From an uncultured Chthonomonadales bacterium (GTDB lineage Bacteria > Armatimonadota > Chthonomonadetes > Chthonomonadales > CAJBBX01): a stretch of DNA of 64,000 bases. The position numbers and the translations under genes are program-made. The notes under the pieces are model-generated. The model saw only the letters and a list, made by a program, of their open reading frames with translations. It searched no databases and had not been told where the DNA came from. Positions 60,037-62,139 of the stretch are shown here, piece by piece; the stretch's first letter is position 1; every line of letters begins with the position of its first letter. The stretch covers positions 1 through 64,000 of the forward strand of contig CALLMM010000050.1 of NCBI GenBank assembly GCA_938005745.1, written 5' to 3'.

Positions 60037-61164
60037 TCATACGCGCGCAGACGGGGTGAGGTAGACGCGGGGCACGCGCGCGGTCAGGCGGGTGGTGATC
60101 TCGTGTTCGGTGGTCTGAACGATGCGGGCGATCTCTTCGACGGTGATCCGCTCCTCGCCCTGCGCCCCGATAAGCACGACCTCCATGCCGACCGAGGCGT
60201 CCGGAACATCCGTCACGTCCAGATTCAACACATCCATGCAGACATGTCCGACCACCGGAACGCGCCTGCCTGCTACCAGCGCACAGCCTGCGTTTCCCAT
60301 CTCTCGCGGGTAACCGTCGCCGTATCCGACTGGAACGGTGGCGATCCGCCGCGGTTCTGAGAGCGTATGCGTTCTCCCATAGCTGATGCTGTGACCGGCG
60401 GGAAGGGGGCGCACCTGCGCAATGACGGACTTCAGGGTCAGCGCCGGGCGTAGATCGGGGATGCGAAACTCTGCGGGGATGTCCGGATGTATCCCGTAGA
60501 TGAGCAGCCCCGGGCGAACCATATTCATCCGGCTTTCGGGATACCGCAGCAGCGCCGCGCTGTTGGCGCAGTGCTGGTGCATCAGCAGAATATCGGCGGC
60601 TTCCACCTGCTTTTTGATCATCAGGAAGGAGGCAATCTGCGCGTGCGTAAAATCGGGGTCATCCTCTGCAGAGGGAAAGTGGGTGCAGAGTCCGGTGATG
60701 ACAACGGAAGTCATCCGGGAGATGATCTCGCAGTGTTTGACCGCCAGGTCGGTCAGGAAGCCGCTCCGTCCCATCCCGGTATCCAGTTCCACATGGATTT
60801 TGATGCCGGTGCGAAGCCTCTGTGCGGTTCTGCTGAGCGCGCGCGCCGCCTCCAGATCGCCCACTACCGGCGTCAGACGGTGCACGATGATCTCTTCTGC
60901 AAGATCGTAGGAGAAGGGAGAGAGGAGGCATATCGAGGCGTACGGGAGCAGTTTACGCAGCGACACGCCCTCCTCTACCGTAGCAACCGCCAGCCACTCC
61001 GCGCCTGCCGCGTGCACGGTGCGTGCGACCTCTGCGGCTCCGTGACCATAGGCATTGGCTTTCACCACCGGCATCACACTCACCCGCAGTCCCATCAGAC
61101 TGCATATCAACTGCATGTTGTGGCGGATGGCGGAAAGATCAATCTCTGCCTGAACTCTGTGCAT
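60037..61164 (-). CDS. alr: Alanine racemase
   Basis: The 375-aa PLP enzyme makes D-alanine for peptidoglycan. It has the PLP-Lys region MPVVKANAYGHGA (Lys35), ELDTGMGRSGF, THFPSAEDDP, NMVRPGLLIYG and the catalytic Tyr in SISYGRTHTLSEP. The ATG at 61164 gives the family's usual start (MHRVQAEIDLSAIRHN); TTG 61182 is an in-frame alternative with GAAAG nearby. The preceding intergenic gap contains a candidate small RNA on the opposite strand. Confidence 0.93.
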   Translation of the reverse strand: MHRVQAEIDLSAIRHNMQLICSLMGLRVSVMPVVKANAYGHGAAEVARTVHAAGAEWLAVATVEEGVSLRKLLPYASICLLSPFSYDLAEEIIVHRLTPVVGDLEAARALSRTAQRLRTGIKIHVELDTGMGRSGFLTDLAVKHCEIISRMTSVVITGLCTHFPSAEDDPDFTHAQIASFLMIKKQVEAADILLMHQHCANSAALLRYPESRMNMVRPGLLIYGIHPDIPAEFRIPDLRPALTLKSVIAQVRPLPAGHSISYGRTHTLSEPRRIATVPVGYGDGYPREMGNAGCALVAGRRVPVVGHVCMDVLNLDVTDVPDASVGMEVVLIGAQGEERITVEEIARIVQTTEHEITTRLTARVPRVYLTPSARV

Positions 61165-61206
61165 ACAGGGGATTTCTGTCAACTTTCAAAAAAGTGGTGT
61201 AACATC

Positions 61207-61235
61207 TTGACAAACAGTGTGTCAGATAATAGTAG
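61207..61235 (+). promoter_or_regulatory. Promoter candidate of the 61.24 kb small RNA
   Basis: A perfect TTGACA lies at 61207-61212 with TAGTAG 17 bp away (61230-61235). The -10 match is weak, but a strong terminator lies ~100 bp downstream on the same strand. Confidence 0.45.
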
Positions 61236-61241
61236 CAGCTC

Positions 61242-61340
61242 GTTTGGGAAATATCCCTTTGCCTCCTGACTCTGGATCGTAATGAGCACGATGCACAGAG
61301 GCGGAGTGTTGGCGGAGAACCTGTGGTTCTCCGTTTTTTT
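61242..61340 (+). ncRNA. Candidate intergenic small RNA (~99 nt)
   Basis: Between alr and the glycosidase gene, both on the minus strand, the plus strand carries TTGACA, a ~100-nt non-coding stretch, and a terminator with seven T. Inside are GGG-AAATAT-CCC, a long stem GCCTC (61261) / GAGGC (61298) enclosing ATCGT / ACGAT, and the terminator hairpin. No open frame of note crosses it. Boundaries are inferred. No Rfam family is recognised. Confidence 0.45.
61313..61340 (+). terminator. Strong plus-strand terminator overlapping the glycosidase stop
   Basis: A perfect 9-bp stem CGGAGAACC / GGTTCTCCG with loop TGT followed by seven T (61334-61340). Orientation is plus while both flanking genes are minus. 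Confidence 0.85.
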
Positions 61341-62139
61341 ATCTCTTTACCGAACGCATGTAGACGGGCAGCAGGCGATCCTTCACCGTTTCATAACGGT
61401 TTCGATCCTGATAGATTACCAGTATATTGGTCAATTGTCGCTGGGGATTTACTAGAATTTTACCCTTATAATAGACCCCGATAGAGCTGCCGCCATCCAG
61501 ATTGATTGCGTTTTCAATTCCGAGAGCCTTCATCGCTCCCGCCAAGCGCGACAGATAGATCGGCTTGCGCGTGAGAACGATCATCAGCCGGTTGTCTCGC
61601 GTGGTTCCAATGGCGATGCGAGGATTGGGGTTGAGCATATGCCGATCCCGGAACCCCTCTCTGGCAGGCTCGACATAGGCGACGTTGTTCTGAACCAGAC
61701 GCGGACCCGCGCTCAGAACATAGTCGAAACGGCTCCAGTCCTGCCGGCGATAGGGCTTCGGGCGAATAAACTTCACATGATTATCTTCGGAGACGCATAG
61801 TGCGGTTCCCAGACCGCCAAAGTGAGTGAGTCTTCCCCCGATAACGATGTCCCCGATGGGGCGAAAGGTTCGGTTGCAGTGAAACGTTCCGGTGATCGCC
61901 ACCGTCGGGCTGGCGCGCCGGACCATCTGCTGGAACGGCTCCGTATGCCCGGCGCCAAACTGATTGAGCATCCCGGTAACCTTTACCTGTGGGCTGTTCA
62001 TATCCACCGAGATCACTTTCAACGGGACGCCCTGAACTGTGGTACAGTAGTAGTGTATCGCCTCTGCCTGAGCCGTTTGCAGGATCAGTACAGTACCCGT
62101 TACCATCCAGAACAAGAGCAGCCAGAACCCTCTCCGCAT
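61339..62139 (-). CDS. Secreted phosphodiester glycosidase (NAGPA-like) family protein
   Basis: The 266-aa protein has a signal peptide (FWLLLFWMVTGTVLIL to about AEA) and the NAGPA/DUF2233 domain: VAITGTFHCNRTFRPIGDIVIGGRL, ALCVSEDN, LSAGPRLVQNN, NPRIAIGTT, and the family signature NLDGGSSIGVYYKG. Relatives remove N-acetylglucosamine from phosphodiesters, or act in spore/biofilm polymer metabolism. It lies divergent from the rhodanese gene. Substrate unknown. Confidence 0.87.
   Translation of the reverse strand: MRRGFWLLLFWMVTGTVLILQTAQAEAIHYYCTTVQGVPLKVISVDMNSPQVKVTGMLNQFGAGHTEPFQQMVRRASPTVAITGTFHCNRTFRPIGDIVIGGRLTHFGGLGTALCVSEDNHVKFIRPKPYRRQDWSRFDYVLSAGPRLVQNNVAYVEPAREGFRDRHMLNPNPRIAIGTTRDNRLMIVLTRKPIYLSRLAGAMKALGIENAINLDGGSSIGVYYKGKILVNPQRQLTNILVIYQDRNRYETVKDRLLPVYMRSVKR

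Follow-up and report, generated by a model that had tools for sequence, protein, structure and literature searches.

The roughly 170 non-coding bases that separate the alanine racemase gene alr from a phosphodiester glycosidase gene in this Chthonomonadales genome contain a small RNA (sRNA) gene whose anatomy is conserved and independent of alr, and whose complementarity to prepilin genes lies far above that of shuffled controls. We consider it likely that this plus-strand RNA, with an ECF-sigma-type promoter and an intrinsic terminator, acts in trans, that its 5' segment pairs with the codons of GFTLIELL, and that it lowers the prepilin family. The wider reading, in which a phylum-level, ECF-sigma-controlled sRNA silences a whole superfamily of tens of paralogues, with little else in common, through antisense to their shared prepilin signal codons, is one towards which we lean with less assurance. 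Coordinates refer to the window, the whole stretch of 64,000 nucleotides that was analysed (Table 1).

Layout of the locus and its promoter

The first-pass annotation had placed a plus-strand intergenic sRNA here that serves neither neighbour, and this is strongly supported by a promoter, 5' segment, hairpin and terminator that are conserved in about 30 genomes. The coordinates of alr and of the NAGPA glycosidase agree with its statement that the two neighbours lie on the minus strand, and the plus-strand terminator with seven T was recovered as the best of 4 such sites within 5 kb; the stop codon of the glycosidase gene (61339-61341) overlaps the final two T of the T run. The start of the RNA was placed at roughly 61229-61234 from the geometry of the promoter. 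The structured character claimed for the plus-strand bases was also borne out, as the stability of their fold exceeds that of dinucleotide shuffles (z -2.7 to -3.8).

Table 1 Features of the sRNA locus and its neighbours in the window
Feature	Position	Strand	Basis and remarks
alr, alanine racemase	60037-61164	minus	PF01168 and PF00842 (Ala_racemase_N/C); divergent; start near the sRNA promoter
-35 element TGTAAC of ECF-sigma-like promoter	61198-61203	plus	Conserved upstream of homologues
TTGACA	61207-61212	plus	Within the 17-nt spacer; no conservation; chance match probable
-10 element GTCAGA, GTC invariant	61221-61226	plus	11-sequence alignment and all homologues measured
Predicted sRNA transcript, about 110 nt	61231-61340	plus	Start from promoter geometry, end from T run
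5' seed AGCAGCUCG	61234-61242	plus	Antisense to the ELL codons (and last base of I) in prepilin GFTLIELL
Conserved 5' hairpin GGGA-AAUA-UCCC	61246-61257	plus	All homologues form a hairpin here; stem pairs vary
Variable middle, pyrimidine-rich start (UUUGCCUCCUG), nested stems	61258-61310	plus	Fold and homologue comparison
Intrinsic terminator, hairpin and seven T	61311-61340	plus	Site scan; T-run terminators in homologues too
Phosphodiester glycosidase (NAGPA)	61339-62139	minus	PF09992; convergent neighbour

The promoter is not the one first named. The TTGACA box is present, and it does not stand as a promoter: the homologues do not preserve it, the hexamer found 17 nt after it, TAGTAG, is poor (3/6), GATAAT lies only 12 nt away, and the site is absent from the output of a sigma-70 scan. 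What the homologues share is TGWAAC-N17-GTC, which spans 61198-61226 in the window. Its -35 variants are TGTAAC, TGAAAC, TGCAAC and TGTTAC, and the distance from the -35 element to GTC is 17 nt in all homologues measured, except for one lineage with 18. The locus thus has two features expected of an independent sRNA gene, namely its own promoter, conserved among the aligned homologues, and an intrinsic terminator on the same strand, in the window as well as in the homologues.

This promoter resembles those of ECF sigma factors. The SigX consensus of Bacillus subtilis, as cited in PMC8024623, is tgtAAC / CGwC, and SigX-type promoters are alike in having TGTAAC or TGAAAC at -35 and a GTC-type -10, which is a likeness of consensus only. 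Genome-wide, the promoter pattern occurs at 12 sites, compared with 14 for a reversed control, so that it is not enriched and reveals no regulon; the ECF assignment therefore draws on consensus and geometry, with no cognate sigma factor linked to it. An inverted repeat, TGACA-N7-TGTCA (61208-61224), overlaps the spacer and the -10 region and is a possible operator.

Homologues and RNA structure

No convincing homologue came from plain BLAST searches of the region, whether in its own genome, in 40 relatives or across the phylum. Inspection of aligned alr-upstream regions disclosed a block next to alr that is shared by ten further genomes from this family and order. On the plus strand, the homologues consist of TGWAAC, 17 nt, GTC, 9-14 nt, (A)GCAGCTCG, a small hairpin, a variable middle and a T-run terminator, and their 5' segment, (A)GCAGCUCG, is near-invariant. 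A sequence model made of the promoter and the 5' region was then searched against 291 phylum genomes; about 30 of these gave a match that covers promoter and seed, ten in family f1, eleven in f3, eight in f6 (all genus g23) and one in f13. All homologues whose sequence was inspected show the order promoter, seed, hairpin and terminator, save one doubtful match from another family (L160, G253:C776:21027-21079), in which the promoter and seed occur without the usual hairpin and which may be a divergent copy or a chance match. Database matches that carry a name come from Chthonomonadaceae and Armatimonadetes metagenome genomes.

The neighbours of these copies differ. Many homologues in f1 and f3 adjoin alr, those of g23 adjoin a galT-like gene, and the copies in G015 and G040 are also not next to alr. 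The gene is hence not tied to one neighbour, and the copies away from alr indicate an independent gene rather than an alr leader, in agreement with the first-pass view that the sRNA does not serve its neighbours. The Rfam search that the first-pass annotation had called for gave no match at the gathering threshold of Rfam 15 in the window; the homologous loci yielded a tRNA only, and below-gathering matches elsewhere at E<=5 were chance ones. The sRNA appears to be a new family.

Several other matches were set aside. The best BLAST match, in G028 (contig C372; 37 nt, 87%, E 3.5e-5), together with weaker matches at that place, was taken as chance because several lie in coding sequence and the real sRNA of G028 is on C163 beside alr. 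A contig match labelled Clostridiales (L224) falls within a reading frame and was likewise taken as chance. In one chance BLAST match, 61282-61310 resembles a mazF-like gene at its start, a likeness that we dropped. A search of the genome contigs for Alr-related loci found nothing.

A hairpin follows the seed immediately in 29 of 29 homologues, with compensatory and loop-length changes. Its forms in relatives include AGGG-GAAA-CCCU (in many), CAGGG-UAAAU-CCCUG, GAGGG-AAAG-CCCUC and AUGGGU-AAG-ACCCAU. As the stems differ yet stay paired, these changes, judged by eye rather than by a covariation statistic, indicate selection on the RNA stem. In relatives the hairpin is part of an extended segment complementary to prepilin genes, so that it would compete with target pairing. 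The stems on which the first-pass annotation had relied are different ones: GCCTC (61261-61265) with GAGGC (61298-61302) and ATCGT (61276-61280) with ACGAT (61288-61292) do nest in the minimum-energy fold, but they belong to the variable middle, where conservation is not demonstrable, and are not the conserved hairpin. In most homologues the hairpin is followed by a pyrimidine-rich stretch (GCCUCCUG and similar; 61261-61268 in the window), which could pair with Shine-Dalgarno sequences.

Complementarity to prepilin signal codons

A 61-nt homologue was compared by BLAST with the genomes of its family, and 19 of the 21 off-locus loci examined were prepilin genes. These matches fall on the GFTLIELL codons and are oriented such that the RNA is antisense to the mRNA. 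Translated, the reverse complement of the 5' end gives GFTLIELL at 8/8 residues in G021, G028 and G040, which represent two families, and matches it at 7/8 in seven further records. We discarded the reading that this reverse-complement motif (KGFPLIELL) codes for a peptide, because it is not encoded by all copies, the window's own among those without it. Within the seed, 8 of 9 positions are 90-100% identical among 23 homologues. The arrangement is RybB-like, in that a 5' seed is complementary to many mRNAs of one protein class, here at the prepilin signal codons. Prepilin-type genes (PF07963) number 54 in the window genome and 37-84 across ten relatives; they are mostly of the GFTLIELLVVIAIIAILAAILFPVFA type.

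Duplex energies were calculated between each RNA and prepilin genes of the same genome, which in the relatives were picked by protein score and not by DNA match. They averaged -30.2 kcal/mol in G003, -34.4 in G006, -31.0 in G020, -26.8 in G005 and -24.9 in G015, whereas shuffled RNAs gave -12 to -18 kcal/mol in these five relatives (z of the real RNAs, -5.1 to -9.1). For the window genome, the values were -19.4 and -13.4 kcal/mol for the real and shuffled RNA (z -3.6). Its copy has degenerated, carrying AGCAGCUCGUUUGGGAAAUAUCCC where most relatives carry AGCAGCUCGAUUAGGGGAAACCC, and retains only the 9-nt seed plus an imperfect extension. The exact complement of the seed is present in 10 of the 52 prepilin genes examined in this genome, and at 94 sites genome-wide, most of them outside prepilin genes. 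These counts make pairing in the window genome weaker and less specific, and the target set may be narrower here than in relatives.

The prepilin genes themselves give no consistent sign of selection for pairing. FPVF-type genes hold the seed complement no less often than other prepilins do (Fisher p = 1), and synonymous recoding of the target codons gave results that conflict between genomes: in the window genome (G000), G003 and G020 the real prepilin genes are outdone in pairing by their recoded versions, and in G005 and G006 they pair better. It appears that the RNA follows the protein motif. The two codon patterns could be escape and targeting, respectively, or codon-usage effects near gene starts.

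Proposed mechanism, alternatives and known systems

In the mechanism that we propose, an ECF sigma factor would direct transcription of the sRNA, the signal perhaps being envelope stress. The conserved 5' segment would base-pair with the mRNA stretch encoding the prepilin signal GFTLIELL. Pairing just downstream of the start codon would stop translation or lead to decay of the mRNA, and activity of an envelope-type sigma factor could thus, through one RNA, turn down the entire family of proteins. Hfq may assist the pairing; an hfq gene occurs in the window genome and, with one exception, in every carrier tested, and the sRNA is probably Hfq-dependent.

Could there be no RNA gene at all, only a promoter-like box and a terminator that came to lie between two genes by chance? 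The poor TTGACA promoter and the failure of plain BLAST to find a convincing homologue would fit this, but it is hardly conceivable given that promoter geometry, seed, hairpin and terminator are conserved jointly in about 30 genomes. The minus strand offers another account, in which the conserved element is the 5' leader of alr, working as a translational switch or attenuator, with an incidental terminator on the plus strand. This idea arose from the minus-strand fold, which is also good (z -4.2), and from conservation upstream of alr in f1 and f3, and the upstream CTCTGTGCAT can pair with the alr start ATGCACAGAG. The element is, however, not always upstream of alr on the strand of that gene, and the promoter geometry and T-run terminators fit the plus strand only; contradicted by the copies away from alr in g23, G015 and G040, a leader is very improbable. 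The complement of CTCTGTGCAT and ATGCACAGAG (61155-61164 and 61291-61300, minus strand) is itself perfect over 10 nt, and could sequester the alr start codon if transcribed.

The remaining alternatives accept a conserved trans-acting sRNA. One holds that its main function lies elsewhere than in the prepilin match, the RNA having other targets or acting through its hairpin or a protein, and the likeness being left over from an origin as a fragment antisense to a pilin gene. The weak pairing in the window genome, with its few exact seed sites in prepilin genes and many elsewhere, and the absence of codon selection in prepilins speak for it. We nevertheless judge it unlikely, as the complementarity persists across several families despite different surrounding sequence, two of them with exact GFTLIELL, and as pairing lies 5-9 SD above shuffled RNA in five relatives. 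The same pairing evidence would serve an sRNA that activates or stabilises prepilin mRNAs, or a sponge titrated by many of them, and the large count of potential targets and the avoidance-like codon pattern in three genomes could be read likewise. Pairing of an sRNA within the early coding region is usually inhibitory, as with RybB and MicC, which makes activation or a sponge quite improbable. Repression of prepilin genes by pairing at their signal codons is the reading that we prefer.

The closest functional parallel would be RybB, a sigma-E-controlled RNA that speeds the decay of many omp mRNAs (PMC1804206). RybB and MicA of enterobacteria are alike in their envelope-stress-type sigma control and in acting, one RNA each, on many envelope-protein mRNAs (PMC1804206). 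They belong to a different phylum and have no sequence relation to the sRNA described here, whose predicted target, unlike theirs, is the signal-peptide codons common to 37-84 paralogues. An antisense RNA of pilE in Neisseria meningitidis is likewise complementary to a type IV pilin mRNA, but it is long, cis-encoded opposite pilE over the whole coding sequence, has a sigma-70-like promoter and affects antigenic variation (PMC4402397), whereas the RNA found here is short, encoded elsewhere and matches many prepilin genes. The literature searched contained no report of this RNA, nor of any regulatory sRNA in Armatimonadota. A mode of control that targets a large paralogous family through its common signal peptide appears to be new.

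Armatimonadota genomes hold very large sets of prepilin-like genes. If the proposed reading is true, the phylum would have a family of regulatory sRNAs that is conserved and for which a regulon is predicted, and production of pilin-type proteins would be tied to an alternative sigma factor. The reading predicts outcomes at single-base resolution that are testable in cultured members. It would also mean that a large paralogous family can be controlled economically, through the codons of one peptide that all its members must keep.
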